Part shown: positions 333 to 28,141 of the stretch, in pieces | Layout of the letters: each line of letters opens with the position of its first letter | Numbering within the stretch: position 1 is the first letter of the stretch | NCBI RefSeq assembly: GCF_014489845.1 | Contig: NZ_JABURY010000003.1 | Location: 1-64,000 of the forward strand | Length of the DNA: 64,000 nt | Direction: 5' to 3' | Source: Frischella japonica | GTDB taxonomy: Bacteria > Pseudomonadota > Gammaproteobacteria > Enterobacterales > Orbaceae | Notes under the pieces: generated by a model | Databases searched by the model: none | What the model saw: the letters and a program-made list of their open reading frames with translations, nothing else | What the model was told of the DNA's origin: nothing | Translations under genes and position numbers: made by a program

Positions 333-935
333 GTGATTGATCATGATGGCTACCGTCCAAATGTAGGAATTATTATTTGTAATCGACAGGGTCAGGTATT
401 ATGGGCGCGTCGTTTTGGTCAAAATTCTTGGCAGTTTCCTCAGGGCGGAATTAATAATAATGAAACTCCTGAACAAGCTATGTTTAGGGAATTAAATGAA
501 GAAGTTGGCTTATTGCCTAAAGATGTAAAAATTCTATCAGTGACTAATGGATGGTTAAGGTATAAATTACCCAAACGGATGATACGTTGGGAGAATGAAC
601 CCATTTGTATTGGTCAGAAACAAAAATGGTTTCTTCTGGAATTAGTATCTGATGTTTCAGCGATTAATTTAGCTGCGACACAGATGCCTGAATTTGATGA
701 TTGGTGTTGGGTCAGCTATTGGTATCCAGTCAGGCAAGTCATTTCTTTTAAACGTGATGTTTATCGTAAAGCGATGAAAGAATTTTCTTCATCAGTTTTT
801 TCGATACAAAGCGAAAAAAAAGAAATGCCTATTCAAAACACGACTGAAGTTCCTAAAGTCAATAATTCTGTACATAAGAAGCGTTTTAGTTTCTTTGCAC
901 ATAAACGTAAAAAGAAGAAGTATGTAAAAAAATGA
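333..935 (+). CDS. rppH: RNA pyrophosphohydrolase RppH (Nudix)
   Basis: RppH removes pyrophosphate from the 5' triphosphate of mRNAs and so triggers RNase E-dependent decay. The Nudix box is intact: G38, five residues, E44, then R52-E53-x-x-E56-E57-x-G59. The N-terminus [13 protein letters not shown] follows E. coli RppH closely and uses a GTG start, as in E. coli, with GAGG at 322-325 as ribosome binding site. The protein is 200 aa against 176 in E. coli; the extra C-terminus is Lys/Arg-rich (residues about 180-200) and may help RNA binding (inference). The stop overlaps the lgt start by four bases (ATGA), so ptsP, which sits between rppH and lgt in E. coli, is absent here. Confidence 0.96.
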
Positions 936-1798
936 AACATTATTTATCTTTTCCTAATTTTGACCCCATTATATTTTCAATTGGCCCTGTTTCCTTACAT
1001 TGGTATGGTGCTATGTATTTATTTGGTGTATTAGGGGCATGGTTATTAGCTAATATCCGAATTAAAAAAGACCACAATAGTTGGACTAAAGAGCAAGTTG
1101 AAAATTTATTATTTTGGGGATTTCTTGGTTTGTTTATTGGAGGAAGAGTTGGGTATATACTCTTTTACAATTTTAAAGTTTTTCTTGCTGATCCACTAGT
1201 GCTATTTCGTGTATGGGAAGGTGGTATGTCATTTCACGGAGGTTTAATTGGGACATTAGTGGTTATTGGACTTTTTGCAGTAAAAACGCATAAACGTTTT
1301 TTTGATGTTTCTGATTTTGTTGCACCGTTAATTCCACTAGGCTTAATGTTTGGCCGTTTAGGTAATTTTATAAATGGTGAATTATGGGGACGCGTTACAA
1401 CTTCTCCTGTTGGAATGTTATTTCCAACGTCAAATTTTGCTGATCTTGCCTATGTCAAAAGTCATCCAGAATGGACTGAACTATTTGTTAATTGCGGTTA
1501 TATTTTGCCTCGTCATCCTTCTCAACTTTATGAAATGGTTTTTGAAGGAATAATCCTTTTTATACTTTTGAATGTGTTTATTCGTAAATCTAGACCTACA
1601 GGAAGCGTATCAGGATTATTTTTATTATTATATGGTATTTTCAGATTTGTAATTGAATTTTTTAGACAACCCGATGAACAATTAGGTCTGTTCTTTAATA
1701 TTATCAGTATGGGGCAAATTTTATGCCTACCAATGATTATTTTTGGAATAATATTTTTCTATTTTGCGTATAAATCCCCAAATGGTTTAAAATATTAA
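932..1798 (+). CDS. lgt: Prolipoprotein diacylglyceryl transferase Lgt
   Basis: This inner-membrane enzyme moves diacylglycerol from phosphatidylglycerol to the lipobox cysteine of prolipoproteins, the first step of lipoprotein maturation. The 288-aa protein is hydrophobic with about seven membrane segments. It has the conserved FHGGLIG motif with H102 and the Lgt signature [10 protein letters not shown] with R142. The ATG lies in the stop of rppH (four-base overlap), so the two are probably translationally coupled. Substrates encoded in this window include LpoA and DolP. Downstream thyA follows after 48 bases, as in E. coli. Confidence 0.97.
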
Positions 1799-1846
1799 AC
1801 CTAAATTTGTATTACCCATTGTTAAAATGTATTTATAGGATTAAAA

Positions 1847-2641
1847 ATGAAACAATATTTAGCACTTATGCAAAAAATTTTAGAAGAAGGAACGCCAAAG
1901 TCAGATCGTACTGGCACCGGAACATTGTCAATTTTTGGCTATCAAATGCGTTTTAATTTGCAAGAAGGTTTTCCGTTAGTCACCACAAAGAAATGTCATT
2001 TACGTTCAATTATCCATGAATTACTTTGGTTTTTAAAAGGTGACACGAATATTCAATATTTGAAAGATAATAAAGTTACAATTTGGGATGAATGGGCAGA
2101 TGAAAATGGAAATTTAGGACCTGTTTATGGCAAACAGTGGCGTTCGTGGCAAGCATCTGATGGTCGTCAAATTGATCAAATTAGTCAAGTTATTGAACAA
2201 ATAAAAAACGATCCTGATTCACGTCGAATTATTGTTTCAGCTTGGAATGTTGGCGAATTAGAGCAAATGGCGCTTGCACCTTGTCATGCATTTTTCCAAT
2301 TTTATGTAGCGAATGGTAAATTATCTTGCCAACTTTATCAACGTTCTTGTGATGTGTTTCTCGGTTTACCTTTTAATATTGCTAGTTATGCATTATTAGT
2401 ACATATGATAGCTCAACAATGTAATTTGGAGGTTGGCGACTTTGTTTGGACAGGTGGCGATACTCACTTATATTCCAATCATATGGAACAAACTCAATTA
2501 CAATTAAGTAGAGAACCAAGAGTGTTACCAAAACTAGTTATCAAAAGAAAACCACCTACAATTTTTGATTACGAATTCGAAGACTTTGCAATTGAGGGCT
2601 ATGATCCTTATCCAGCAATTAAAGCGCCAGTGGCGGTATGA
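1847..2641 (+). CDS. thyA: Thymidylate synthase ThyA
   Basis: ThyA makes dTMP from dUMP with methylene-tetrahydrofolate as methyl donor and reductant. The length, 264 aa, equals that of E. coli. The catalytic cysteine is C146 in APCHAFFQF, the phosphate-binding arginines include R126/R127 in [11 protein letters not shown], and the folate/dUMP loop [18 protein letters not shown] is intact. It lies directly after lgt and is followed by a hairpin that may end the transcript. Confidence 0.98.
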
Positions 2642-2653
2642 TGTATTATTATT

Positions 2654-2686
2654 TATGCGGCAATGTTAGCCGCATAGAAACTTTTT
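2654..2686 (+). terminator. Probable intrinsic terminator after thyA
   Basis: A perfect 8-bp stem TATGCGGC / GCCGCATA (2654-2661 and 2669-2676, loop of seven) starts 12 bases after the thyA stop and is followed by GAAACTTTTT. The T-run is short and four bases away from the stem, so termination may be partial. Confidence 0.5.
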
Positions 2687-2818
2687 ATGTGATAAAAATT
2701 TCCCGCTAGAAATAAAATTTTTTGTATGGGCATTCAAAGACTATTTATGGATAAGTATGAAATTAGCTTAACTCTATGCTAAACTAAGCGCCATTATATT
2801 GAGTATTAATAAATTATA

Positions 2819-3901
2819 ATGCAAAAGTTAAACCGTGTTATTTTATATTGTCGTTCAGGTTTTGAGAAAGAGTGTGCCGCAGAAATTACAGATAAGGCTG
2901 CTGAATTAGGGATTTATGGTTTTACTAAATCCTTACCATCAAGTGCTTATGTTGAATTTGAATGCTATCAAGCAGATGAAGCGGAAAAGTTAATCAAAAT
3001 GATTAATTTTAAAACGCTTATTTTTGCTAGACAAATATTTGTTGCGGGAGCGCAATTAACTGAACTATCTAATCAAGATAGAATTACGCCGTTGATTGAG
3101 GCCATTCAAGGTAATATTTCTCGTGCCGGATCCTTGCGTGTTGAAATTCCAGATACTAATGAGGCTAAAGAATTAGCAAATTTTTGTCGAAAGTTTACCG
3201 TACCTTTAAGGCAAGCTTTACGTGCAAATCAAATTTTATTGAAAGTTGAAAACCCGTCAAAACCGGTTATTCATATTTTATTTATTAACAGCACTAGCTG
3301 TTTTATTGGTTACTCATATAGTAATAATAATTCGCCATTTTATATGGGAATTCCAAGGTTAAAATTCCCGCCAGATGCACCTAGTCGTTCTACTTTGAAA
3401 TTAGAAGAAGCTTTTCATGTTTTTATTCCATATGAAGAATGGGATGAACGTTTAAAAGGTGGCATGAATGCCGTTGATTTAGGAGCTAGTCCTGGTGGTT
3501 GGACTTATCAACTTGTCAAACGGAGTATGATGGTTAGTGCTGTTGACAATGGTCCAATGGATAAATTGCTAATGGAATCAGGACAAGTTAAACATTATCA
3601 AGAAGATGGTTTTAAATTTCGACCAAAAAAGAATAGTATCTATTGGTTAGTTTGTGATATGGTAGAAAAGCCGACAAAAGTGACCGCATTAATGGTTGAT
3701 TGGTTAGTTAACGGTTTATGTCGTGAAACTATTTTCAATTTAAAATTACCCATGAAAAAACGTTATGAAGAAGTAAAACAAAATATGTTATTTCTGGAAC
3801 AACAATTAAAAGAACATCGAGTTAATGCCCAGATTCAAGCGAAACAGCTTTATCATGATCGTGAAGAAATTACGATACATGTTCAACGTATTTGGGGATA
3901 A
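2819..3901 (+). CDS. rlmM: 23S rRNA 2'-O-methyltransferase RlmM (C2498)
   Basis: RlmM methylates the ribose of C2498 in 23S rRNA. The N-terminal half (about 1-170) is the THUMP-type RNA-binding part; the C-terminal half is a Rossmann methyltransferase with the SAM motif [13 protein letters not shown] at 220-232. K194 in [11 protein letters not shown] fits the first lysine of the K-D-K-E tetrad used by 2'-O-methyltransferases. Length 360 aa against 366 in E. coli. The ATG at 2819 has no obvious Shine-Dalgarno. A possible -10 (TATGCT) lies near 2774, so it is probably a single-gene unit. Confidence 0.95.
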
Positions 3902-4036
3902 GTTACCTTAAGGTATAACAATGATTTAATTAATACTATTAATTTTCATAGTAAATATTATCTAAATTAAAACTTTTTTACTGTATCAGTTGTTAATTAT
4001 TGCCTACACAATTCAATAAACGAAAGAGATTTTATA

Positions 4037-5965
4037 ATGATTAAGTTGCAAAGATTGTCAGGTTTTCCTTCTGCATGGTTAAATTTTATTAAAGTAAGTT
4101 TGATTGCAATATTGATTAGTTTTTTAACAGGATGTCCTAGTTATATTCCTAAGCAAATAAGTTATGATCAAACTAAAAATGCGCAGTATTATCTATCTCA
4201 AGCTGAAAACGTTTCAGGTAATGAGAAAATTAATTGGCAGTTGCTCGCTATTCGGGCGTTGTTGCTTGAAAATAATGTTAAACAAGCAGTCCAATTATTT
4301 AATCAGCTTCCACAAAATTTAGATGCTGAGCAACTAAAAGAGAAGACCTTATTAGAAGGTGAAATTGCAGTAAAAACTAAACAAAAATTTGATTTTAAAT
4401 CCATATCGCCGACAAGTTTAAGTGAAGAACAAACAATTCGTTACTATAAGATAAAGATTGACTTAGATGGTCTCAAAAAAGATTATAATGCCCAACTTCA
4501 TGATTATATTGAACTTGAAAAATATGGCTCGGTTAACCAACGTCATGATACTATCAATAATACGTGGAATTTTTTAACTAATTTATCTGATAAAAAAATT
4601 AATCAAATTTTAATTTATGCAGATGATTATGTATTACAAGGGTGGATTGATTTACTCTATATTTATAAAAGCAATATAAAAATGTACGCTTTTAATAACC
4701 AAGATGATATTGATGCCGATGCGATAGCTAAATTGGAAGAGGAGCAATATCAAGCTCTCAAAAATGCTGTTAGTGAATGGCAAATACAATATTCAGGTCA
4801 TCCTGCGGCAACTTATCTACCGAGAGATATTTACGGTGAAAAATATCATCTACCAGATGCTGCTGAAAATAGAAAAATTGCATTATTTCTACCATTAAGT
4901 GGTAAGTCTAAAATATTTGGTGAGACAATTCGGTTAGGTTATCAAGATGCTGCTAAAGCATCTTCGCCAGACTTGCAACAAGATATAAATTTTTACGATA
5001 CCAATAGTGATTCTATTGAGAATTTAATCATACGAGCGAAGCAACAAGGTGCACAATTAATTGTAGGACCATTATTAAAACAAAATGTACAAACGCTATT
5101 GCAGTCTGCCAGCGATATTCCAGTGCTAGCATTAAATAAAATTGAAGATATTTCTTTATCGTCTGATTCAGCTACAAAAATCTGCTTTTTTGCTTTATCC
5201 CCAGAAGATGAAGCTAAAGATGCTGCGCAACATATTTATAATGAAAAGAAAAAACAACCATTATTGATTATTCCTCATAATAATCTTGGTGAACGTGTTG
5301 CTAAAAGTTTTGCTCAGCAATGGAATATCGCTCATCCGACATCAAGTCCCGTTTATGTTCAATATTTTGATTCAGCTGAAGAATTGAGTAAGAAAATGAA
5401 TTCTGGCGTGGGTATTGAATTAGAGGGTGTGCCATTAATCACAGCAGATGTTGATCAGAATGGACAAGTTATGCCTAAAAAACAAGTTGAATTTGATGCT
5501 ATTTATATTTATGCTTCGCATGAAGAGCTGACCTTAATTAAATCGATGCTTGAGATGAAATCAAGTGCAGGTAATAACTCTAAAAATACCAGTAGTGTCA
5601 AAACAAGTAAAAAAAATATTCCTGCGCTTTACGCGAGTTCTAGAAGTAATATTGCTAATACTACAACTGATTTTCGTTATGATATGGATCAATTACAACT
5701 AAGTGATATACCTCTAATTATCAAGCACGATGAATATTATTCGCAATTACCTGATTATATTAAAAATGATTATTCTTTGGCTCGTTTATATGCAATGGGA
5801 TTTGATGCCTGGGCGCTATCAAGCCAATTTGATAATTTAGTACCTTATAAGAGCAAAAGTATTGATGGAAAAACAGGAAAATTATCCGTTGCCAATCAAT
5901 GTGATATCTCTCGTAAATTATCATGGATCCGTTATCAAGATGGTAGTGAAATTGCGGTTGATTAA
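4037..5965 (+). CDS. lpoA: Penicillin-binding protein activator LpoA (outer-membrane lipoprotein)
   Basis: LpoA is an outer-membrane lipoprotein that reaches through the periplasm and activates the peptidoglycan synthase PBP1A. A membrane segment ends in the lipobox LTGC with C33 as lipidation site. The region after it is helical and TPR-like (about 35-250). The C-terminal part (about 275-640) resembles a periplasmic ligand-binding fold, seen in segments such as RKIALFLPLSGKSKIFGETI. Length 642 aa against 678 in E. coli; the Pro/Gln-rich linker seen in enterobacteria is shorter. It is the first gene of the lpoA-yraN-diaA-dolP cluster. The region before the lipobox is rather long, so a later start is possible. 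Confidence 0.94.
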   Translation: MIKLQRLSGFPSAWLNFIKVSLIAILISFLTGCPSYIPKQISYDQTKNAQYYLSQAENVSGNEKINWQLLAIRALLLENNVKQAVQLFNQLPQNLDAEQLKEKTLLEGEIAVKTKQKFDFKSISPTSLSEEQTIRYYKIKIDLDGLKKDYNAQLHDYIELEKYGSVNQRHDTINNTWNFLTNLSDKKINQILIYADDYVLQGWIDLLYIYKSNIKMYAFNNQDDIDADAIAKLEEEQYQALKNAVSEWQIQYSGHPAATYLPRDIYGEKYHLPDAAENRKIALFLPLSGKSKIFGETIRLGYQDAAKASSPDLQQDINFYDTNSDSIENLIIRAKQQGAQLIVGPLLKQNVQTLLQSASDIPVLALNKIEDISLSSDSATKICFFALSPEDEAKDAAQHIYNEKKKQPLLIIPHNNLGERVAKSFAQQWNIAHPTSSPVYVQYFDSAEELSKKMNSGVGIELEGVPLITADVDQNGQVMPKKQVEFDAIYIYASHEELTLIKSMLEMKSSAGNNSKNTSSVKTSKKNIPALYASSRSNIANTTTDFRYDMDQLQLSDIPLIIKHDEYYSQLPDYIKNDYSLARLYAMGFDAWALSSQFDNLVPYKSKSIDGKTGKLSVANQCDISRKLSWIRYQDGSEIAVD

Positions 5966-6318
5966 TGTTAGATAAACGTCAATTAGGGCAATATTATGAA
6001 GCATTAGCATGCCGTACATTATGCTCTAATGGTTTAAAGTTAATCGCAAAAAATAGTCAATCTAGATTAGGTGAAATTGATCTGGTGATGCAGGATCAAG
6101 GGTGTTTGGTTTTTGTTGAAGTTCGTTATCGCAAAAATGATTTATTTGGTAATGCTACTTCAACGATAACGCGCGCGAAACAAATTAAAATTATCCATGC
6201 TGCTTATCATTGGATGTTTCAGCAGGATATTAACAGTGAGTTATGTGAATTTCGCTTTGATATCTTTACGTTTACAGGAAAAGATTGGCAATGGATAAAA
6301 AATGCCTTTTCTTTATAG
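5965..6318 (+). CDS. yraN: YraN family protein (UPF0102, nuclease-like fold)
   Basis: A 117-aa protein of the UPF0102/YraN family, whose fold belongs to the PD-(D/E)XK nuclease group; its cellular role is not established. The family motif is visible as RLGEIDL (E37, D39) followed by FVEVRYR (E52, R54), which would be the metal site. The ATG shares one base with the lpoA stop (TAATG), so the pair is probably coupled in translation. The order lpoA-yraN-diaA-dolP is conserved in gammaproteobacteria. Confidence 0.92.
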   Translation: MLDKRQLGQYYEALACRTLCSNGLKLIAKNSQSRLGEIDLVMQDQGCLVFVEVRYRKNDLFGNATSTITRAKQIKIIHAAYHWMFQQDINSELCEFRFDIFTFTGKDWQWIKNAFSL

Positions 6319-6365
6319 AAATACAAGCGATCACAATCTGTGTGATATTATGAGAAATAGCGGTA

Positions 6366-6950
6366 ATGTTAAGTACAATTAAAAATTATTTTACTGAAAG
6401 TATTCAAACTCAAATTGTGATGGCGGAAGCATTAAGTCAACCAATTGAGCAAGCTGCTAACATTATTATTAATGCCTTACTTAATGGTAATAAAGTGTTG
6501 AGTTGTGGTAATAGTATATCTGCGGCGAATGTACAAAATTTTACTGCTCAATTAGTGAGTGGTATTGATATTGAACGTCCTAGTATCCCTGCGATTGCAT
6601 TAGTTAGTGATAATATTTTGATTAGTACGGTAGCAAATCATTACCATCAAGTAAATGATATTTACGCTAAACAGATTCAAGCATTAGCAATGCAAGATGA
6701 TGTATTAATTATTCTTACCACTGACGGTAATGATAAATCAATTATTAGGGCAGTACAGGAAGCTGTTATTAAAGATCTACCTGTTATCGCCATTACTGGT
6801 TGTGATGGTGGTACCGTGGTAGGATTATTGGGTCAGAATGATATTGAAATTAGAATTCCTTCTCATAAAGAAAGAACAATATGTGAAATGCAGTTGTTGG
6901 TATTAAATTGCCTTTGTCAACTTATTGAGAATATGCTTTTTTTACGTTAA
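6366..6950 (+). CDS. diaA: DnaA initiator-associating protein DiaA (SIS domain)
   Basis: DiaA is a SIS-domain protein that forms a tetramer, binds DnaA and promotes timely initiation at oriC. The 194-aa sequence aligns along its whole length with E. coli DiaA (196 aa): the N-terminal helix FTESIQTQI, the SIS segment LSCGNSISAANVQNF (about 46-60), and the C-terminal NCLCQLIENMLF. It resembles GmhA sedoheptulose-7-phosphate isomerase, but synteny with yraN and dolP favours DiaA. The ATG at 6366 has only a weak ribosome binding site. Confidence 0.94.
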   Translation: MLSTIKNYFTESIQTQIVMAEALSQPIEQAANIIINALLNGNKVLSCGNSISAANVQNFTAQLVSGIDIERPSIPAIALVSDNILISTVANHYHQVNDIYAKQIQALAMQDDVLIILTTDGNDKSIIRAVQEAVIKDLPVIAITGCDGGTVVGLLGQNDIEIRIPSHKERTICEMQLLVLNCLCQLIENMLFLR

Positions 6951-7067
6951 ATCGTGTTGATTACTACTGCAAAGAAAATAAAAAAGCATGGTCGATTATA
7001 TGGGTGAGCTTAAATACTAAATTGTATCAAGATTGCCTAACTAATTACAAAAATAGGGGATTGATTT

Positions 7068-7643
7068 GTGAAAAAAATAGTATTACTTATTTCAATAGTT
7101 ACTGGCGCATTGATGTTACAAGGGTGTGTTGCAGCATTTATTGGTGCGGGAGCTGGGGTAGCGAAAATCGCCTCTGATCCTAGAACAACAGGTAAGCAGG
7201 TTGATGATACATCAATTGATTCAAAAATCAGCTTGAAGTTAAAAAATGAAGAAGAGTATTTTAAAGGTTCGCGTATTGTAGCTTCCTCTTATAATGGTAA
7301 TGTTCTTCTTATCGGTCAGGCGAAATCACAAGCTGTTATTAATCGAGCACTAGAATTGGCACATAGTGTTGACGGTGTGGCTAAAATTTATAATCAAATA
7401 CGAGTTGGAAATATTGTGGGAGCTGGAACCATGGCAAATGATGCATGGATCACAACGCATGTGAAAGCTAATTTAATCGCAAATAAAGAGACTAAAGCTC
7501 GTGATATAAAAGTTATTACAGAAGATGGTGAAGTTTTCTTATTGGGTATTGTTAACCACAATGAAGGCGATATTGCTGCTGAAATAGCAAGTAAAACGGC
7601 AAAGGTTAAATTGGTCACAAAAATTTTCACTTATGTGGATTAA
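7068..7643 (+). CDS. dolP: Outer-membrane lipoprotein DolP (YraP, two BON domains)
   Basis: DolP is an outer-membrane lipoprotein with two BON domains that binds anionic phospholipid at division sites and supports envelope integrity and BAM activity. The signal ends in the lipobox LQGC with C20. BON1 spans about 45-115 (SKISLKLKNEEEYF onward) and BON2 about 120-191 (NDAWITTHVKANL onward). The length of 191 aa equals that of E. coli. The start is GTG, with AGGGGA at 7055-7060 as a strong ribosome binding site. A hairpin follows 26 bases after the stop. Confidence 0.96.
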   Translation: MKKIVLLISIVTGALMLQGCVAAFIGAGAGVAKIASDPRTTGKQVDDTSIDSKISLKLKNEEEYFKGSRIVASSYNGNVLLIGQAKSQAVINRALELAHSVDGVAKIYNQIRVGNIVGAGTMANDAWITTHVKANLIANKETKARDIKVITEDGEVFLLGIVNHNEGDIAAEIASKTAKVKLVTKIFTYVD

Positions 7644-7669
7644 CTTGAAAATAAATTACAAACGAGATA

Positions 7670-7692
7670 GCCCCATAGTTAGGGGCTTTAAA
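7670..7692 (+). terminator. Intrinsic terminator after dolP
   Basis: Stem AGCCCC / GGGGCT at 7670-7675 and 7683-7688 with a seven-base loop, followed by TT and then AAAATG. The stem is GC-rich for this genome but the T-run is short. It lies between the plus-strand dolP and the convergent minus-strand csdE, about 70 bases before the csdE stop, so it may act in both directions. Confidence 0.55.
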
Positions 7693-7760: not shown

Positions 7761-8171
7761 TTAGTTCATTGATGCTAAATTTTTTATTTTATTTATGATA
7801 TTTTGCACCCCTAACTGACGGGATTCACTTAATTCATCAATAATTTTTAATCGCTTCAATACTGCGGCAAAATCAAATTCTGCTATTTCGACCGCGGTTT
7901 TACCGTTAGCTAAAATTAGTAAAATAGTCATCAAGCCTTTAACAATACGACCTTCACTATCACCATAAAAATTGAGTTGGTGTTGACTATTTTTTTCTAC
8001 TATTAACCAAACATGATTTTCACAGCCATATATTTGATTTTCAATTGATCGAGCTTCTTCGGGTAAGATTGGCATCAGTTTAGCTAGTTTTATTATTTCT
8101 CGGTAGCGATCTTGCCAAGTATTGAGGGTTGAAAACAAAGCATATAACTGATCTTGGGTGACTAAGGGCAT
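7761..8171 (-). CDS. csdE: Sulfur acceptor protein CsdE (SufE family)
   Basis: CsdE takes the persulfide from the cysteine desulfurase CsdA and hands it on. The acceptor cysteine is C50 in YGCENHVWL, the same motif as in E. coli CsdE (CENRVWL). GDSEGRIVKGLMTILL is the conserved SufE core. It lacks the first ~11 residues of the E. coli protein (136 against 147 aa). It follows csdA on the same strand after a 152-base gap. No ribosome binding site is evident at the ATG. A minus-strand TATAAT lies just upstream (8181-8186), which leaves open an own promoter with a very short leader. SufE is the main alternative, but the CsdA partner next door supports CsdE. Confidence 0.92.
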   Translation of the reverse strand: MPLVTQDQLYALFSTLNTWQDRYREIIKLAKLMPILPEEARSIENQIYGCENHVWLIVEKNSQHQLNFYGDSEGRIVKGLMTILLILANGKTAVEIAEFDFAAVLKRLKIIDELSESRQLGVQNIINKIKNLASMN

Positions 8172-8323
8172 AATATTTAAATTATAATCAATGTAGTACT
8201 ATGATTGTAACATAGTTGAAAAATAATCAGTAAAATTAAATATGCTACAATTAATGACAAGGCATAACGTTTCAATTAATAAAATTTTTCAAAAAGATAA
8301 AATGAGGCTGTTAAATAAGTCTA

Positions 8324-9520
8324 TCATTTTAATATTGATAATGCATTTTCAACCGCAAAAAGAAATTTATCTGCATCAGTTTGTGAATTATATGGCATAA
8401 AGGATGCTCGAATCACACCTTTACAATTTAGGGCTTTTATCAAAGGTTGTGCACACAATTCGCCATTTCGAATGGCAATATTTTGTTCCGTAAGTAAAAT
8501 GGCAATATCATCATGATGAATATCAGTAAAAGAGAAACTTAACAGAGGACTATTTGCTCTACTATGTATTTTGATATTTGGCAATGCACATAATTTTTTA
8601 TAGGTATATCTCACTAAATCAATTGTGTATCGCTCGGCAGTATTACTATCTAGGGTTTTTAACCAATCTAATACCGCATAAAAGCCAATTACTGCAGCAA
8701 TATTTGGCGTGCCAGCTTCAAATTTATACGGAAGATTAGCCGGTTTAAAATCAGTAAAGGAGGTAGTTTTGAGCATTTTCCCCCCGCCTTGCCAACAATT
8801 CATTTGTTGTAATAATTCTGATTTACCGTATAGCACGCCCAAACCTGTTGGTCCATATAATTTATGGGCAGAAAAAGTATAAAAATCGATGTCATATCGT
8901 TGAACATCCATGGCATCATGAATGACACCTTGTGCACCATCGACGACAATGATTGCGTTGTATTGATGAGCTAGTTGGCTAATTTTAGCTATATTAGGTT
9001 GATATCCAGTAACATTTGACATTTGTGTAACAGCAATAATGCGAGTTTTATTTGTCATCAATAATTGTAGATGTTGGGTGGATAATGTACCGTCTGCTTC
9101 AATTTCCCATTTAATTACTTTTGCGCCTGTTTGTTCGGCCACTTGTAACCAAGGAATGAGATTACTATGATGTTCTAGTTCACTGACAATAATTTCATCA
9201 CCTGATTGTAAACGATTTCGTGCATAACTCTGAGCTACAAGGTTAATTGACTCAGTCGCCCCTTTAGTCCAGATAATTTCATGATTAAATGGTGCATTAA
9301 TTAAATCAGCAGCCAGTACTCTCGCTAATTCATATTGTGCATCTAAGGCTAGTGCTTGGGAATGTTTACTTCTTAATACTGTAGTGGCATTAAGATAGTA
9401 ACGATTAGTAGCTTCAATCATGACTAACGGTTTTAAAGCTGTAGCTGCAGAATCAAGATAAATCCCTTCAGATTGTAGAGAAGGAAATTGTGAACGAAAA
9501 AAGATAGGATCAAAATTCAT
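8324..9520 (-). CDS. csdA: Cysteine desulfurase CsdA
   Basis: CsdA is a group II PLP-dependent cysteine desulfurase producing alanine and an enzyme persulfide. The PLP lysine is K220 in FSAHKLYGPTG, the active cysteine is C356 in GELCAQPL, and YLDSAATALKP at the N-terminus is typical of the SufS/CsdA branch. Length 398 aa against 401 in E. coli. Its ATG overlaps the ubiV stop by four bases (9517-9520), so it is translated from the ubiU-ubiV transcript. This places a sulfur donor beside two [4Fe-4S] proteins. It is distinct from the IscS desulfurase encoded in this window at 23146-24360. Confidence 0.95.
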   Translation of the reverse strand: MNFDPIFFRSQFPSLQSEGIYLDSAATALKPLVMIEATNRYYLNATTVLRSKHSQALALDAQYELARVLAADLINAPFNHEIIWTKGATESINLVAQSYARNRLQSGDEIIVSELEHHSNLIPWLQVAEQTGAKVIKWEIEADGTLSTQHLQLLMTNKTRIIAVTQMSNVTGYQPNIAKISQLAHQYNAIIVVDGAQGVIHDAMDVQRYDIDFYTFSAHKLYGPTGLGVLYGKSELLQQMNCWQGGGKMLKTTSFTDFKPANLPYKFEAGTPNIAAVIGFYAVLDWLKTLDSNTAERYTIDLVRYTYKKLCALPNIKIHSRANSPLLSFSFTDIHHDDIAILLTEQNIAIRNGELCAQPLIKALNCKGVIRASFMPYNSQTDADKFLFAVENALSILK

Positions 9521-10395
9521 TTCGTTAACTCAAGTCCGGCAATACCATTCCAATAACCATTACAATCGTGTTTAGATATAATTTTGATTGGAACTTGACC
9601 CGTTTCGTTAGCTTTAAACTGTTGCAACATTGCTAAGGTTTCAATTCCCTGTGGCGATAAACGGACAATATCGACTAAACCTTGCATATCTTTTAGATTA
9701 TTACCTAAATTGTAACAATAACCACTTTGAGTTTGGATACCGTTAAGTACAAAAACTTTCTGTTGCTCTTGAGAAAAAACCTCACGACCAGTAGGATATT
9801 TGATACAACATGTTTCACATTTATCTTTTGGTCTATCTTCAGAGCGCGCAGTAAAACAGCGTGCAGAATAAGCTAATGGAAGGTAACCATAACTAAATAC
9901 TTCTATTTCAAATTGACGTTGAATTTTAAGTGATTCAAATTGATGTAATACATTGAGTAACCAATCGCGTGATAATTCGACAGGCATGCACCATCGAATC
10001 ATCCCCTGTTTTTGTAATAACTTAAGTGTCAATGCGTTATAACAGTTAATTGCCGGGCCGGCGACAAAAGGTAATCGGTGTTCTTGCGCTAAATTGATAG
10101 CGGCTAAGTCATTTGCTTCAATAAGGAATTCACCATTATTGACTAATTGGCGCATTTCATTAATTTCCGATGCCGCTTCCAATAGCGCTAATGTTGATAA
10201 TATAACTTGTTTACCCGAATTAGATACTTCTTTTGCTAAAGCGATCCAGTCGGCAACTTTCATTTCACGACGTTTAGTGCAAACCGTCTCACCCATATAA
10301 ATAATATCGGCCTCACTTTGCATCGCCGCGTGATAAAATTTTTCTGTTTCGATTTTAGGCCAATAATATAAAATTGGACCTAAGGCATATTTCAT
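9517..10395 (-). CDS. ubiV: O2-independent ubiquinone biosynthesis protein UbiV (U32 family)
   Basis: UbiV forms a heterodimer with UbiU and, with UbiT, carries out the ring hydroxylations of ubiquinone synthesis without oxygen. It is a U32 peptidase-like protein holding a [4Fe-4S] cluster. The four known cluster cysteines are all present at the E. coli positions: C39 (GETVCTKRR), C180 (YSARCFTARSEDRPK), C193 and C197 (KCETCC). Length 292 aa, like E. coli YhbV. It lies 45 bases after ubiU and overlaps csdA by four bases. Confidence 0.96.
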   Translation of the reverse strand: MKYALGPILYYWPKIETEKFYHAAMQSEADIIYMGETVCTKRREMKVADWIALAKEVSNSGKQVILSTLALLEAASEINEMRQLVNNGEFLIEANDLAAINLAQEHRLPFVAGPAINCYNALTLKLLQKQGMIRWCMPVELSRDWLLNVLHQFESLKIQRQFEIEVFSYGYLPLAYSARCFTARSEDRPKDKCETCCIKYPTGREVFSQEQQKVFVLNGIQTQSGYCYNLGNNLKDMQGLVDIVRLSPQGIETLAMLQQFKANETGQVPIKIISKHDCNGYWNGIAGLELTK

Positions 10396-10440
10396 AAAAC
10401 TTCCCTTAAGAATAAAGACTAATGTTGCTCAATAGGTATC

Positions 10441-11436
10441 TTATTGCCATTTACGATGATAGGCCCCTAAAGTTGTTTGACTACCTTCTGACACTGAGCC
10501 TAGTATATCCATCCATTGTTTTTCAGCTTGATAAGCATGAGGATTCATCAAATAGCGATCAATTGCCTGACGCCAGACTCTAGTCACTTGCTCGACGTAG
10601 GCGGGGCTACGCTGACGACCCTCAATTTTTACTGATGCAATATTGGCAGAAAATAAATCTGGTAATAGTTCAATCGTATTTAAACTTGTTGGTTCTTCAA
10701 TCGGGTGGTATAAGGTATTTTCAACAAAATAACGACCTTTACATAAAGTTGGGTAACCCGCATTTTCACCTTTCTTATGGCAATCTATTAACACATTGTT
10801 TAAACGCGATTCTAATCCGCGTTCGGTTTCCTCCCAGCGGACAAATTTTGCAGGCGAACAAGCACCAACAGTATTCGGTGATTCTCCTGTTAAATAAGAG
10901 GAAAGGTAACAACGACCTTCCGCCATAATACATAGACTTCCAAAAGCGAACACTTCCAGTGGAATTGGCGATACTTGGGCTAATTGCTTAACTTGATGGA
11001 TTGATAATACTCGAGGTAGCACAATACGATGTGGTTTAAAATTATTATGGTAAAACTTGATTGATTCAATGTTTGTTGATGAAGCTTGAACAGATACATG
11101 ACGTTCAATATCGGGATATTTTTCAGCCGCATAATCAAGTATTGCTAAATCAGCTAAGATTAGGGCATCAGCGCCAATATTTGCTGCCATATCAACGGCA
11201 TTTTGCCAGCGAGAGAAATTATCAGGATGAGCAAAAGTATTTATCGCAATATGCAATTTTTTACCTTTCCTGTGAACATAATCTGATGCTTCGAATAGTC
11301 GTTTTTCATTAAAATTTAGTCCAGCGAAATGGCGAGCATTGGTATCATCTTTTAAACCAATATAAACAGCATCAGCGCCATTATCAATTGCAGTTTTTAG
11401 TGCTGGTAAAGAACCAGCAGGACATAAGAGTTCCAT
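10441..11436 (-). CDS. ubiU: O2-independent ubiquinone biosynthesis protein UbiU (U32 family)
   Basis: UbiU is the partner of UbiV in anaerobic ubiquinone hydroxylation. The [4Fe-4S] ligands seen in E. coli are conserved at identical positions: C169 (FGSLCIMAEGRC), C176, C193 (GACSPAKF) and C232 (YPTLCKGRYF). Length 331 aa, as in E. coli. It is first in a minus-strand unit ubiU-ubiV-csdA. ubiT, which is divergent from ubiU in E. coli, is not here; a LacI-family gene occupies the divergent position, 358 bases away. Confidence 0.96.
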   Translation of the reverse strand: MELLCPAGSLPALKTAIDNGADAVYIGLKDDTNARHFAGLNFNEKRLFEASDYVHRKGKKLHIAINTFAHPDNFSRWQNAVDMAANIGADALILADLAILDYAAEKYPDIERHVSVQASSTNIESIKFYHNNFKPHRIVLPRVLSIHQVKQLAQVSPIPLEVFAFGSLCIMAEGRCYLSSYLTGESPNTVGACSPAKFVRWEETERGLESRLNNVLIDCHKKGENAGYPTLCKGRYFVENTLYHPIEEPTSLNTIELLPDLFSANIASVKIEGRQRSPAYVEQVTRVWRQAIDRYLMNPHAYQAEKQWMDILGSVSEGSQTTLGAYHRKWQ

Positions 11437-11794
11437 AAATAATTATTCCTCAAATATAACCTTAATATTATGCAATAAAACCTTAGTCATTGCGAATATA
11501 AAATCGTGTAATTATCGAGATAAAAGAATTCGTTAAGACAATCTGAGAAATATTATATATGATTTTATCCATGCTTTGATTAAGTACATAATAGCAGTAT
11601 TAGATTAATCGTTGATAATCATATGTTAATTTATATCACGAAGAATTATTGTGCGATATTGTTATTTTGACGTAGTAATTTTTAACTGTATTTCTAAAAT
11701 ATTGCGAATTGTATCGTAAAAATTAGCTAATTTTCTGATCTTTTGACTAATTATTGGTAATTTAAATAAATAATAGTTATAGCCCAAATATATT
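11437..11794. other. Divergent intergenic region between ubiU and a LacI-family gene
   Basis: 358 bases of AT-rich DNA between two divergent genes. No gene is visible. On the minus strand a TATAAT-like -10 lies at 11552-11557, suitable for ubiU. Around 11576-11589 there is one clear FNR half-site (TTGAT on plus, ATCAA on minus), but the other half is poor. I see no complete regulator palindrome. In E. coli ubiUV is oxygen-regulated, so a control site is expected here, but the sequence alone does not show a convincing one. Confidence 0.4.
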
Positions 11795-12880
11795 ATGTCG
11801 AAACGAAAAATTACTTTAAAGGCAATTGCTCAGCGTGCTGGATTATCAATAGCTTCGGTTTCCAGAGTGATACACACACCACATTTAACGCATCGGGATA
11901 CCCAGAGTCGGGTTAATCAAGCTATTTCAGAACTCAATTTTGATGCAAAAGAATTGTTCAAAAATTATCACGCTGTTAACCAAAGTAATACAATTTTAGT
12001 CATTGATAATCAACTTATTCCGAATAGTTTGATTAATCATGGTATTGAATATAAAGCAAAAATGGAAGGGTATAAATTGCTTTATTTACGATTTATTTAT
12101 TTTAACGAAAACGAGATTCAACAAATTATTAGTTATACCATCAATCATCATTTAGATGGTATTTTAATCATCAATGATTCGCCTTATTTAAAGCGCCTAT
12201 TACAATTTCAACATGCATTACCACCGATAGTATTAATTAACCAATTTTCAATGAGTTTACCTTGTATTTATTTCGATCATTTATCCATTGGTTATCAAGC
12301 AACTGAATATTTGCTGAGCTTAGGTCACAGGAATATTGCGATATTATTGGCGGAGGAAGAACGTAATGAGGTTTATCAACTGTTCAACGGCTATCAACAA
12401 GCCTTAGCTCGGGCGAATATAATGGTAAATGATAAATTAATTGCTTATCAATCAGTTAGTTATTCAGCATGTAAAACTGCTTTAAGAACAATGATGAGCA
12501 GCACACAACCACCATCAGCAATCATATGTACTGATTGCTTAAGTTTAAATTTTCTCGATCGAGAGCAACAATCTAATAGTTCATCTGGTTATAGCATTAG
12601 TACAGAAAGTGCTATTTGTGGTGTCATTGATCAATGTCGAGCAATGAAAATTAATATTCCGGAACGATTATCTTTGTTACAGTTTGTACATGATAATTCC
12701 CATAAACCTTATCAACCATTGAACCATATTACCGCGATTTATAAACCACTATTTGAAATGGGAGAACAAGCTATGCTGTTATTAGTTTCAATGCTGAATT
12801 GTGATCAACCGATTCGTCTGGCAAAAATGATTGAATGTGAACTAATCATTCGTCATTCAACGACTAAATTAAATCAATAA
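11795..12880 (+). CDS. LacI-family transcriptional regulator, CytR-like
   Basis: A LacI/GalR repressor with an N-terminal helix-turn-helix (ITLKAIAQRAGLSIASVSRV, residues 6-25), a hinge near 50-58 and a periplasmic-binding-like effector domain. Segments PPIVLINQF and the C-terminus CELIIRHSTTKLNQ resemble the CytR nucleoside repressor (PPMVMANEF, CELIIRGSTRALP). At about residues 255-275 it carries an extra Ser-rich stretch not found in CytR, making it 361 aa against 341. No nucleoside genes lie nearby and no Shine-Dalgarno precedes the ATG, so target and effector are unknown. It is divergent from ubiU and convergent with xseA. Confidence 0.75.
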   Translation: MSKRKITLKAIAQRAGLSIASVSRVIHTPHLTHRDTQSRVNQAISELNFDAKELFKNYHAVNQSNTILVIDNQLIPNSLINHGIEYKAKMEGYKLLYLRFIYFNENEIQQIISYTINHHLDGILIINDSPYLKRLLQFQHALPPIVLINQFSMSLPCIYFDHLSIGYQATEYLLSLGHRNIAILLAEEERNEVYQLFNGYQQALARANIMVNDKLIAYQSVSYSACKTALRTMMSSTQPPSAIICTDCLSLNFLDREQQSNSSSGYSISTESAICGVIDQCRAMKINIPERLSLLQFVHDNSHKPYQPLNHITAIYKPLFEMGEQAMLLLVSMLNCDQPIRLAKMIECELIIRHSTTKLNQ

Positions 12881-15735: not shown

Positions 15736-16857
15736 ATGTCGGTAGAATTAAACAGTTTACGTGATAAGATTGATGAAATCGATCAAGCAATTTTATCTTT
15801 AATTGCCAAGCGACTGGAATTAGTTGCACAAGTCGGGGAAGTAAAAAGCTTGCATGGTCTACCGATTTATGATCCCAAACGCGAATCTACAATGCTAGCA
15901 AAACGACGTTATGAAGCTGAACAGGCAGGTATTCCGCCTAATTTAATTGAGGATATTCTTCGACGTCTTATGCGGGAATCGTACATTAGTGAAAATGATA
16001 AAGGTTTTAAGAAGGTTTATAGTGGTCAGGGATCTGTAGTAATCGTTGGTGGTAATGGGCAAATGGGCAGGCTTTTTACTCGTTTATTCACACTGTCAGG
16101 TTATTATGTAAAAATATTGGGTTCAAAAAATATGCATCAAGCTACAGAAATGGTCGCTGATGCAGCAGTAGTGATTATTACTGTACCAATTAATAAAACA
16201 GTTGAAATAATTAATCAATTACCGGAACTACCACATGATTGTATCTTAACGGATTTTACTTCAATAAAACAAATCCCATTACAAACTATGTTAAATAAAC
16301 ATCGCGGTCCTGTTGTCGGGTTGCACCCTATGTTCGGTCCTGATGTGCCTAATTTAGCAAAGCAAGTTATTGTCTATTGTGACGGACGGCAGGTTGAAAA
16401 ATATCAATGGCTGATTGAACAGATGAAAATTTGGGGGGCAATTCTTTATCCTATTACTGCTAGCGAACATGATAAATGCATGTCATTTATTCAAGCATTA
16501 CGTCATTTTACTTCATTTACATATGGTGTAAATTTACAGCAAGAACAGGCTAATTTGGAGCAACTTATTGCATTATCTTCACCGATTTATCGTTTAGAGT
16601 TGATGATGGTTGGGCGGTTATTTGCACAAGATCCACAGCTTTATGCGGATATCATAATGTCATCTGAGCAAAATATTGAGTTAATTAAACATTACTATCA
16701 ACGATTTGGTGAAATGGTACAATTAATTGATCAGGGTGATAAGCAGCAGTTTATCAAGCATTTTAATCAGGTTACCGAATGGTTCGGTGATTATGCTCAA
16801 CGATTTATAAAAGAAAGCCAATCTTTATTAAAATTAGCAAATGACAATCGTGCTTAA
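15736..16857 (+). CDS. tyrA: Bifunctional chorismate mutase / prephenate dehydrogenase TyrA
   Basis: TyrA turns chorismate into prephenate and then, with NAD+, into 4-hydroxyphenylpyruvate, the tyrosine branch. The chorismate mutase domain is residues 1-90 ([14 protein letters not shown]28, K37). The dehydrogenase domain starts at [14 protein letters not shown] (Rossmann glycines at 105-111) and carries H197 in GLHPMFGP. Length 373 aa, like E. coli, with near-identical C-terminal blocks ([20 protein letters not shown]). aroF, its usual operon partner, is not upstream. It converges on a LacI-family gene 20 bases away. Confidence 0.98.
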
Positions 16858-22657: not shown

Positions 22658-23116
22658 ATGAAATTAACATCAAAAGGTCGCTATGCAGTAACTGCAATGC
22701 TTGATGTTGCACTTCATTCAAAAAAAGGTCCTGTGTCGTTGGCGGATATATCAGTAAGGCAAGCGATTTCGTTGTCTTATCTTGAGCAATTATTCTCGCG
22801 TCTTAGAAAAAATGGCTTAGTCATCAGTGTTAGAGGTCCTGGTGGAGGCTATGTACTTGGTCGTAAAATGAATGAAATTGCCATCAGTTCGATTGTGAAA
22901 GCGGTTGATGAAACTGTCACTGCGACTAAGTGTCATGGCGAGGAAGGTTGTCAGGGTGGTGTTAAATGTTTAACCCATTCATTATGGAATGAGTTAAGTG
23001 AACGAATTGATAGTTTTTTAACGGGTATTACATTGAGTGAGCTCGTCAAAAGTGAAGATGTTAAAACTATCGCCGATAGACAAGATAATGTCATTCGAGT
23101 CAATCACCTTAACTGA
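22658..23116 (+). CDS. iscR: Fe-S cluster regulator IscR
   Basis: IscR is an Rrf2-family winged-helix regulator that senses cluster supply and represses its own operon in the [2Fe-2S] form. The N-terminus [18 protein letters not shown] is typical. The cluster ligands are at the canonical positions C92, C98, C104 and H107 ([16 protein letters not shown]). Length 152 aa against 162; only the variable tail is shorter. AAGGAA precedes the ATG. First gene of the isc operon, behind two IscR boxes. Confidence 0.98.
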
Positions 23117-23145
23117 TTATGAGATATTGATTATTGGAGCGCTAA

Positions 23146-24360
23146 ATGAAACTTCCAATTTATATGGATTATGCTGCAACAACTCCCGTTGATCCTCGGG
23201 TAGCAGAGAAAATGATGCAATATTTAACGCTGGATGGCATATTTGGTAACCCAGCGTCCCGTTCACATCGTTTTGGTTGGCAAGCTGAAGAGGCAGTTGA
23301 TATTGCCCGTAATCAAATTGCTGATTTAATTGGTGCCGATGCTCGTGAGATCGTCTTTACTTCTGGTGCGACTGAAGCAGATAACTTAGCAATTAAAGGT
23401 GCGGCTCACTTTTACAAAGCCAAAGGTAAGCATATTATTACTTGTAAAACTGAACATAAAGCAGTATTAGACACTTGTCGTCAATTAGAACGTGAAGGCT
23501 ATGAAGTTACTTATCTATCACCAGAAACAAATGGTTTAATTGACCTGAAGAAGCTAGAGCAAGCAATACGTGATGATACCATTGTGGTTTCTATTATGCA
23601 TGTAAATAATGAAATCGGTATTATTCAGGATATCGAAAAAATCGGTGAATTATGTCGTAGTCGTGGTATTGTTTTTCATGTCGATGCGACACAAAGTGTT
23701 GGTAAATTACCGATCGATTTAACGAAGTTGAAAGTTGATTTAATGTCCTTTTCTAGTCACAAATTATATGGTCCTAAAGGTATTGGCGGCTTATATGTAA
23801 GACGTAAACCACGTATTCGTATTGAAGCACAGATGCATGGTGGCGGACATGAAAGAGGCATGCGCTCGGGAACTTTACCGGTACATCAAATTGTCGGTAT
23901 GGGTGAAGCCTATCGTATCGCTAAGCAAGAAATGGATAGCGAGATGGCCCGCTTACAGGCATTAAAGCAACGTTTATGGAATGGTTTAAAAGATATTGAT
24001 GAAGTCTATTTGAATGGTTCTATGGAGCATAGTGTCGCAAATATTTTAAATGTAAGTTTCGCTTATGTTGAAGGTGAATCTTTAATGATGGCATTAAAGG
24101 ATTTAGCCGTTTCATCGGGTTCTGCTTGTACTTCTGCAAGTTTAGAGCCATCTTATGTATTACGCGCTCTAGGTTTAAATGATGAATTAGCACATAGTTC
24201 TATTCGTTTTTCGTTAGGTCGATTTAGTACCGAAGAAGAGGTCGATTATGTGATTAAGTTGTTACATGATTCGATTGGTAAATTACGCGATTTATCTCCA
24301 TTATGGGAGATGTTCCAAGACGGTGTTGATTTATCGCAAATCAAATGGTCAGCCCATTAA
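23146..24360 (+). CDS. iscS: Cysteine desulfurase IscS
   Basis: IscS is the housekeeping PLP-dependent desulfurase that feeds sulfur to IscU and to tRNA thiolation. The PLP lysine is K206 ([10 protein letters not shown]) and the mobile catalytic cysteine is C328 ([17 protein letters not shown]), both at E. coli positions; length is the same (404 aa). It lies 29 bases after iscR with TTGGAG before the ATG. Confidence 0.98.
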
Positions 24361-24383
24361 AAACAGTTAAACGAGGAAAAATT

Positions 24384-24764
24384 ATGGCATATAGTGACAA
24401 AGTTGTCGATCATTACGAAAATCCTCGTAATGTTGGTTCATTTGATAAAAATGATCCAAATGTTGGTAGTGGTATGGTTGGCGCACCAGCATGTGGTGAT
24501 GTGATGCGTTTACAGATTAAGGTTAATGACAATGGTATTATTGAAGATGCAAAGTTTAAAACCTATGGTTGTGGTAGTGCTATTGCATCAAGCTCTTTAG
24601 TGACAGAGTGGATTAAAGGTAAGTCTTTAGATGAGGCGAGTGCGATTAAAAATACTGATATTGCTGAAGAGTTGGCGCTACCACCGGTAAAAATTCACTG
24701 TTCGATCTTGGCAGAAGATGCGATAAAAGCAGCCATTGAAGATTATAAAAGTAAGAAAAAATAA
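24384..24764 (+). CDS. iscU: Fe-S cluster scaffold IscU
   Basis: IscU is the scaffold on which [2Fe-2S] clusters are built before transfer by HscA/HscB. The ligands C37, D39, C63 and C106 are present, and the HscA recognition motif LPPVK is at 99-103. The open frame extends 13 codons upstream, into iscS, but MAYSDKVVDHYENPRNVG is the family start and has ACGAGGAA at 24371-24378, so I place the start at 24384 (126 aa; E. coli 128). A 229-base gap separates it from iscA, much longer than in E. coli. Confidence 0.97.
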   Translation: MAYSDKVVDHYENPRNVGSFDKNDPNVGSGMVGAPACGDVMRLQIKVNDNGIIEDAKFKTYGCGSAIASSSLVTEWIKGKSLDEASAIKNTDIAEELALPPVKIHCSILAEDAIKAAIEDYKSKKK

Positions 24765-24993
24765 TATCATTTTTAATCGTGATATGTTTTTTATTATATG
24801 TCATCCACCTCATCTATTGGCCAAATTATAAAAATGGCATGTAGATACATTGAATAAATTATGATATTCCGACATTACGTTGCACTATTTATGCGAAATA
24901 TATTAGATTTTAGTATAAATCTTTCTACATTTAGTAATGAATTTAGATGGTTATTCGGATAATGGTATGGGATACATAATAAAGGAAAAAGAT

Positions 24994-25317
24994 ATGTCAG
25001 TGACTTTAACTGAAAGTGCAGCTAATCGGATACACTCATTTTTAGCTAACCGTGGCAAAGGTATCGGGTTACGTCTTGGCGTCAAAACATCGGGATGCTC
25101 TGGTATGGCTTATGTTCTTGAGTTTGCTGATGAGATATATGACGATGATACAATTTTTGAAGACAAATCAGTCAAAATTATTGTTGATAAAAAAAGCCTT
25201 GTCTATTTAGATGGTACCGAATTAGATTTTGTTAAAGAAGGCTTGAATGAAGGTTTCAAATTCAGCAATCCAAATGTTAAAAATGAGTGTGGTTGTGGTG
25301 AAAGTTTCAATGTCTAG
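24994..25317 (+). CDS. iscA: Fe-S assembly protein IscA (A-type carrier)
   Basis: IscA is an A-type carrier needed mainly for [4Fe-4S] maturation. The three ligands C35, C99 and C101 ([16 protein letters not shown]) are intact. The frame is open for 19 more codons upstream, but [13 protein letters not shown] matches the family start, has AAGGAA before it, and gives 107 aa, exactly the E. coli length. It begins 229 bases after iscU, in the same direction. Confidence 0.97.
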
Positions 25318-25353
25318 TCAGGCATATTGCTTTTGTAAATAAGAGGGGGGGAA

Positions 25354-25875
25354 ATGGAAAAAAATTATTTTAATTTATTGCAATTACCAGTTGTATTACC
25401 CATTGATGGTTCCCTTTTAAGTTTACACTATCAGCAATTACAGCGGCAGTTTCATCCAGATAACTATGCGACAGCGCCAGATAACGAAAAAGCTGCAATT
25501 TTGCAACAATCAGCTTCCATCAATGCTGCTTATCAAACCCTAAAAGATCCTATTAAAGCTGCCGAATATCGGCTAAGTTTAGAAGGAATAAATATTAATG
25601 AAGAGCAGCAAACTATTCATGATAGTCCATTTTTGATGGAACAATTTATGTTGCGAGAGCAACTGGATGATCTTGAACATGCGCAAAATTGGGATGAGTT
25701 AACATTATTTTATGATGAGATGATTGAGCGTAAAAATCAAATTTATGCACAATTATTAGAGTATATTAATCAATCTCATTGGCTAATGGCAAAACAGCAA
25801 TTATATAAGCTACGTTATTATGCAAAATTGATTGAACAGATCGAGCTGCTTCAAGAAAAACAGTTTAATTTATAA
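25354..25875 (+). CDS. hscB: Fe-S co-chaperone HscB (Hsc20)
   Basis: HscB is the J-domain protein that brings IscU to HscA and stimulates its ATPase. The J-domain is residues 1-75 with the HPD motif at 34-36 (QFHPDNYATAP). The C-terminal three-helix bundle (about 85-173) binds IscU. Length 173 aa against 171. GAGGGGG precedes the ATG by five bases. It lies between iscA and hscA, as usual. Confidence 0.97.
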   Translation: MEKNYFNLLQLPVVLPIDGSLLSLHYQQLQRQFHPDNYATAPDNEKAAILQQSASINAAYQTLKDPIKAAEYRLSLEGININEEQQTIHDSPFLMEQFMLREQLDDLEHAQNWDELTLFYDEMIERKNQIYAQLLEYINQSHWLMAKQQLYKLRYYAKLIEQIELLQEKQFNL

Positions 25876-25914
25876 TATCTTATTATTAATCTATTAGTCT
25901 AAAGAGAATATTTC

Positions 25915-27774: not shown

Positions 27775-27802
27775 GCCTTGAATTTTAAAAAGAGAGCGAA
27801 TT

Positions 27803-28141
27803 ATGCCAAAGATTACTTTTTTACCGAATGCTGATCTTTGCCCAGAAGGTATCACAGTTGAAGCTGAGAAGGGTGAATCAATTTTAGAAGTAGCATTACG
27901 TAATGATATTGAAATTGATCATGCATGTGAAATGTCATGTGCGTGTTCTACATGTCACTGTATAGTACGAAAAGGTTTTGATTCATTAGAACCTAGCGAT
28001 GAACAAGAAGATGATATGCTTGATAAAGCTTGGGGAGTTGAGCCTCATAGTCGTTTAAGTTGTCAAGCCAGAGTTGACGATGAGGATTTGACGGTTGAAA
28101 TTCCTCGTTATAGCTTGAATCATGCAAAAGAAGATCATTAA
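27803..28141 (+). CDS. fdx: [2Fe-2S] ferredoxin Fdx (isc type)
   Basis: This adrenodoxin-like ferredoxin supplies electrons for cluster assembly on IscU. The ligands C42, C48, C51 and C87 are present (CEMSCACSTC; SCQARV), with the extra non-ligand C46 typical of the isc type. Length 112 aa against 111. It is the last isc gene here: iscX, which follows fdx in E. coli, is absent, and the next gene is on the other strand. Confidence 0.97.
   Translation: MPKITFLPNADLCPEGITVEAEKGESILEVALRNDIEIDHACEMSCACSTCHCIVRKGFDSLEPSDEQEDDMLDKAWGVEPHSRLSCQARVDDEDLTVEIPRYSLNHAKEDH

Follow-up and report, generated by a model that had tools for sequence, protein, structure and literature searches.

Genes for UbiU and UbiV joined to csdA and csdE in Frischella japonica and across sampled Orbaceae

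Described ubiUV and csdAE loci

In Escherichia coli, UbiU and UbiV, the subunits of an O2-independent ubiquinone hydroxylase, and the cysteine desulfurase CsdA with its sulfur acceptor CsdE are encoded far from one another. The divergent, FNR-controlled ubiT/ubiUV locus lies at 3.30 Mb near lpoA-yraN-diaA-dolP, and csdA-csdE-tcdA is found at 2.94 Mb, close to rlmM and ~20 kb from thyA-lgt-rppH; csdAE and ubiUV are ~358 kb apart. Here we describe a 64,000-nucleotide (nt) stretch of Frischella japonica (assembly GCF_014489845.1, contig NZ_JABURY010000003.1, positions 1 to 64,000), hereafter the window, in which ubiU, ubiV, csdA and csdE follow one another head to tail on the minus strand from 11436 to 7761. 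It is near certain that the four genes are joined in this way. An initial annotation of the window, made from the sequence alone, had pointed out the junction and the separation of the two gene pairs in E. coli, both of which are borne out.

Compared with the E. coli ubiT/ubiUV locus, UbiU and UbiV of the Orbaceae are orthologous and have the same cluster cysteines, and lpoA-yraN-diaA-dolP is again nearby, but ubiT is gone from the locus, csdAE stands behind ubiV, and the upstream element differs, being conserved and promoter-like, with FNR matches at chance level in nearly all sequences. Compared with csdA-csdE-tcdA, the order of csdA and csdE and the catalytic residues are the same and the genome holds a tcdA orthologue, whereas here tcdA is on another contig and csdAE stands behind ubiUV. 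Architecture '4' of the ubiTUV genes of Pseudomonadota likewise has ubiU then ubiV with ubiT distant, and the available part of the text describing it does not mention csdAE (PMC11707229). The SUF system (sufABCDSE) likewise places a SufE-like acceptor after a group II cysteine desulfurase, but its SufB/SufD core was found in 0 of 44 Orbaceae genomes, in a search whose control matched in 14/14 genomes.

To our knowledge, the CsdA-CsdE pair has one firm role in vivo only, in the tRNA modification cyclic N6-threonylcarbamoyladenosine (ct6A), and its part in iron-sulfur (Fe-S) maturation is unsettled. TcdA is the proven in vivo client of the pair in E. coli, where 2% of ct6A is left in a ΔcsdE mutant and 12% in a ΔcsdA mutant (PMC4405576); in the reference list of the same paper, the title of Trotter 2009 gives the Suf machinery as the CsdA route to Fe-S. 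The Orbaceae live in insect guts, and many of them are culturable bee-gut symbionts. With no SUF, few O2-dependent hydroxylases and csdAE locked behind ubiUV, the family offers a clean natural setting for the question of Fe-S maturation by CSD. In the open-access literature searched, the only link between ubiUV and csdA was the use of CsdA in vitro (PMC6747719), which does not imply absence from print.

The four-gene block, its spread and its origin

The first gene, ubiU (10441..11436, minus strand), encodes a U32-family [4Fe-4S] subunit that is 76% identical to E. coli UbiU, and ubiV (9517..10395, minus strand) encodes the second [4Fe-4S] subunit, 66% identical to E. coli UbiV. Both products belong to their families by NCBIfam profile score (NF047963, 534.8 bits, cut-off 440; NF047965, 367.5 bits, cut-off 275). 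The product of csdA (8324..9520, minus strand), 52% identical to E. coli CsdA, is a group II cysteine desulfurase identified as CsdA by its TIGR03392 score (571.4 bits, cut-off 493.6), its residues and its placement in a tree; with a second model, NF008126, it scored 574.2, below the cut-off of 607. The SufE-like acceptor encoded by csdE (7761..8171, minus strand) is 38% identical to E. coli CsdE and scored just under the TIGR03391 cut-off (129.1 against 136.4 bits), above its score with the SufE model (98.5), and it is encoded behind csdA with its acceptor Cys in a GCE(N) motif. The start of csdA lies inside the stop codon (TGA) of ubiV, in a 4-nt ATGA overlap read directly at 9517..9520 on the minus strand, and csdE follows csdA after 152 nt.

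Alignment with the E. coli proteins bears out the earlier statement that UbiU and UbiV each retain four cluster cysteines (C169/C176/C193/C232 in UbiU; C39/C180/C193/C197 in UbiV, the E. coli UbiV cysteines being numbered as in PMC6747719), and a UbiUV heterodimer with two [4Fe-4S] clusters is predicted here. The pyridoxal phosphate lysine (K220) and catalytic C356 of CsdA and the acceptor C50 of CsdE also align with their E. coli counterparts. The ligand and catalytic residues are invariant across all Orbaceae rows aligned (65 to 67 rows per protein, with several genomes entered more than once). Loss of the catalytic cysteine from some CsdA proteins, raised by a pattern miss, was ruled out by the alignment, which has Cys in all rows.

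The join is a feature of the family. Profile searches for UbiV and CsdA, with matches over the cut-offs, covered 44 Orbaceae genomes in five genera, and ubiV and csdA were adjacent on the same strand in 43/43 genomes that hold both (rows compared by eye), several of these genomes being single-contig; the ends of the hidden Markov model matches were 14-79 nt apart. The 44th genome (G036, 81% complete) had no CsdA match, and its UbiV search gave matches to U32 paralogues only. Behind csdA, csdE was present in every long locus (19/19), every named locus (18/18) and 28/30 of the short loci, the last having only ~1.5 kb of flank and including the window itself. The form of the ubiV/csdA junction varies within the family between ATGA, TAATG, a longer overlap and a gap of 44-47 nt (L147).

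Beyond the Orbaceae, the surroundings of ubiV were searched by tblastn with CsdA and CsdE from both the Orbaceae and E. coli, and neither csdA nor csdE was found beside ubiV in 100 loci of other Gammaproteobacteria (from 101 genomes with UbiV, this one included, leaving out second copies in G348 and G472), in 20 other Enterobacterales, in 62 named Enterobacterales or unnamed-rank bins, or in 39 loci of other Pseudomonadota classes (39 of 55 UbiV-bearing genomes); some of these contigs stop near ubiV, so a few flanks are short. One CsdA-like match 3.1 kb from ubiV (L171, 33%) is a distant desulfurase-like protein rather than csdA beside ubiV. In the 217-genome order search, the nearest ubiV and csdA on one contig outside the Orbaceae, by eye among the matches listed, were ~49 kb apart (G229), and two genomes (G047 and G200) hold csdA with no UbiV match, which indicates that csdA is independent of ubiUV elsewhere. 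Thus, the join is restricted to the Orbaceae in the samples searched. The survey that the initial annotation had proposed therefore finds the join universal in one family and nowhere else sampled, and the concern that it might occur only in this genome falls away.

Signals around the block are consistent with its transcription as a unit. Upstream of ubiU, an element of the form TTCGCA-N18-CATAAT (11467..11496, minus strand), which resembles a sigma-70 promoter and ends ~30-40 nt before the gene, matches at 12/12 positions and is the sole 12/12 match in the window. The element occurs at 10/12 or better with a spacing of exactly 18 nt in 36/38 distinct Orbaceae upstream sequences, and any other spacing tried was found in at most 6/38; as it was derived from the same 38 sequences, the evidence is its fixed position and spacing across genera and not its score. 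A terminator-like hairpin lies downstream of csdE (7669..7687, minus strand), as found by a consensus scan that is not proof of function, and the same scan gave no terminator-like site between csdA and csdE on that strand. Since the join is family-wide, with the element upstream, the hairpin downstream and no such site between csdA and csdE, the four proteins are very probably made together. A claim of FNR-based anaerobic control was dropped, as FNR-box scores upstream of ubiU stand at chance level in nearly all sequences; FNR sites are reported before ubiU in 74% of cases in which ubiT is apart (PMC11707229). Judging from the overlap, the conserved order and the element scans, ubiU-ubiV-csdA-csdE is probably a four-gene operon fixed in the Orbaceae.

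The flanking genes point to how the block may have arisen. The order rlmM-ygdD-gcvA-csdA-csdE-tcdA-mltA is kept in three genomes of related families (L258-L260), and the window has rppH-lgt-thyA-rlmM, lpoA-yraN-diaA-dolP and csdE-csdA-ubiV-ubiU in succession, which indicates that two old neighbourhoods distant in E. coli have been interleaved. At 333-7643, rppH-lgt-thyA-rlmM runs directly into lpoA-yraN-diaA-dolP, two neighbourhoods ~0.3 Mb apart in E. coli; lpoA was named by a tblastn match, and two others are genes that we take by recognition to be lgt and thyA. In a tree, CsdA of the Orbaceae forms one clade (96/100) inside a supported clade with enterobacterial (E. coli) CsdA and separate from SufS and the sequences of family f22. 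This position indicates that csdA was relocated rather than imported, and horizontal acquisition was ruled out on the same grounds. The block is the only stretch intact in all 19 long Orbaceae loci, which are not independent and come mostly from one genus group; gene order is broken on both of its flanks, differently by genus (dolP-csdE is joined in 15 loci, ubiU-lacI in five and diaA-dolP in four). A single rearrangement in the Orbaceae ancestor probably placed csdAE behind ubiUV at an ancestral dolP-side locus.

Sulfur supply, quinone synthesis and the function of the join

What the join might do depends on the other sulfur routes and quinone enzymes in these bacteria. A CsdA search of the F. 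japonica genome gave csdA and iscS only, with no SufS-like second desulfurase. The window also holds the full isc operon that the initial annotation had noted (22658-28141, with starts at iscR 22658, iscS 23146, iscU 24345, iscA 24937, hscB 25354, hscA 25915 and fdx 27803); iscS is supported by its match in the CsdA search, and the other genes we take to be those named by recognition. The operon is 14.6 kb from csdA, and of the 22 Orbaceae genomes with iscS and csdA on one contig, 19 have the two genes no more than 60 kb apart. The ubiT gene, as anticipated, is not adjacent: it is on another contig (G000:C2:143441-143914), and it was absent from the ubiUV locus in all 19 long Orbaceae loci. 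The isc system is the main one behind UbiUV-dependent ubiquinone in E. coli, in agreement with the earlier note, and anaerobic ubiquinone-8 there falls to ~15% after loss of isc and to 60-80% after loss of suf (PMC10470549).

Each of the 44 Orbaceae genomes encodes a single member of the UbiH/UbiF/UbiI family (TIGR01988, E 1e-30 or better), the one here scoring best, below the cut-off, with the 2-octaprenylphenol hydroxylase (UbiI-type) model. Replacement of the missing hydroxylases by COQ7 was ruled out, with matches in 0/44 genomes. A study of 95 Gilliamella genomes reports that ubiI is the only O2-dependent gene and that no quinone other than ubiquinone-8 is likely, and suggests that ubiquinone-8 is made by the anaerobic route (PMC11325843). 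Given the single O2-dependent hydroxylase, the absence of COQ7 and the agreement of that study, UbiUV probably has a central place in how the Orbaceae make quinone and is not a back-up. The known client of CsdAE is also kept: tcdA was found in 42/44 genomes, mostly with 65-68% identity to E. coli, the two without it being of low completeness, and it is partial in G034. In F. japonica it lies on another contig (G000:C11:187264). In one genome of the Gilliamella group (G017:C1:696716-697488), tcdA is split over two frames by a frameshift or a sequencing error.

We favour, at somewhat better than even odds, the view that the join serves co-expression of UbiU and UbiV with a CsdAE pair that is shared and not an exclusive, dedicated donor. 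One transcript would, since the rearrangement, make UbiU, UbiV, CsdA and CsdE together; CsdA would take sulfur from cysteine and hand a persulfide to CsdE, which would supply TcdA for ct6A modification. Without SUF, CsdA-CsdE would be the only such sulfur carrier pair besides ISC, and for this reason it may also deliver sulfur to ISC at the scaffold, or to repair, when the clusters of UbiU and UbiV are made. The link in function between CsdAE and UbiUV is one that we infer. It is made more interesting by the family-wide loss of SUF and of most O2-dependent hydroxylases, two facts that the initial annotation had missed. Several points weigh against co-expression with a shared pair. Two genomes (G028 and G029; L146 and L147) lack the conserved element upstream of ubiU, and in the second of them ubiV and csdA do not overlap but stand 44-47 nt apart. 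For nearly all sequences, sites like TTGATNNNNATCAA for FNR upstream of ubiU do not outscore shuffles (the shuffle fraction is ~0.04 in 2/38), although this comparison has little power, as E. coli's own sites reach only 7/10. E. coli CsdA has been used as the catalyst rebuilding UbiUV clusters in vitro (PMC6747719), but this is evidence of chemical feasibility only and carries no information on specificity. Moreover, retention of the join could reflect a single event, after which the translational overlap could be undone only at a cost.

This last point leads to an alternative to which we give about one chance in three, that the join is a frozen accident: a rearrangement would have brought two neighbourhoods together and the csdA-ubiV overlap locked them, with CsdAE serving TcdA only and ubiUV contributing merely a promoter. 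The mixture of both E. coli neighbourhoods (2.94-2.97 Mb and 3.29-3.30 Mb) in the window, the retention of tcdA and the family-wide absence of SUF, the known route from CsdA to Fe-S, are all consistent with such an accident. However, the block is intact in 19/19 loci although gene order has been disrupted on each side of it, and the junction changed its form with the genes staying together even where there is no overlap.

A more specific role is possible and, in our view, unlikely: CsdA-CsdE may have been recruited in the SUF-less Orbaceae, whose sole likely quinone (as argued in print for Gilliamella) would rely mainly on UbiUV, as an anaerobic sulfur source for the UbiU/UbiV clusters, via IscU or directly, and if this were true the family would have a quinone-dedicated Fe-S supply line in place of SUF. 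Less probable still is that these clusters receive their sulfur mainly from CsdAE, with or without IscU. The conserved adjacency of ubiV and csdA, the lack of SUF, the probable need of UbiUV for most ubiquinone hydroxylation (PMC11325843) and the support that E. coli CsdA gives to UbiUV cluster reconstitution in vitro (PMC6747719) are compatible with a donor of this kind, but the isc operon is complete and its loss in E. coli is the one that lowers anaerobic ubiquinone-8 most (PMC10470549), TcdA is still encoded, the known route from CsdA to Fe-S is missing in 44/44 genomes, and csdA also occurs where UbiV has no match (G047 and G200). Thus, the proposal in the initial annotation of a sulfur source made with the two cluster proteins, and perhaps dedicated to them, very probably holds for co-production, whereas tcdA in 42/44 genomes, the SufB/SufD core in 0/44 and a complete isc operon argue against dedication. 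The survey already refutes both an assembly artefact and a chance proximity confined to a single genome, since the join is kept in 43/43 family genomes with both genes and named public records share the gene order.

Neighbouring genes

Divergent from ubiU is a LacI/CytR-like regulator gene (window 11795-12880) whose product falls below the CytR cut-off. In g1 and g3 such a gene adjoins ubiU, in g4 and g5 there is a same-strand relative with 41-44% identity, and in the loci of g2 (the Gilliamella group) none was found. A gene at 15736-16857, some 4.3 kb away from ubiU, is one that we take by recognition to be tyrA-like (chorismate mutase/prephenate dehydrogenase); it is near in Orbus loci too, and prephenate appears in the NCBIfam title of TrhP, a U32 relative.

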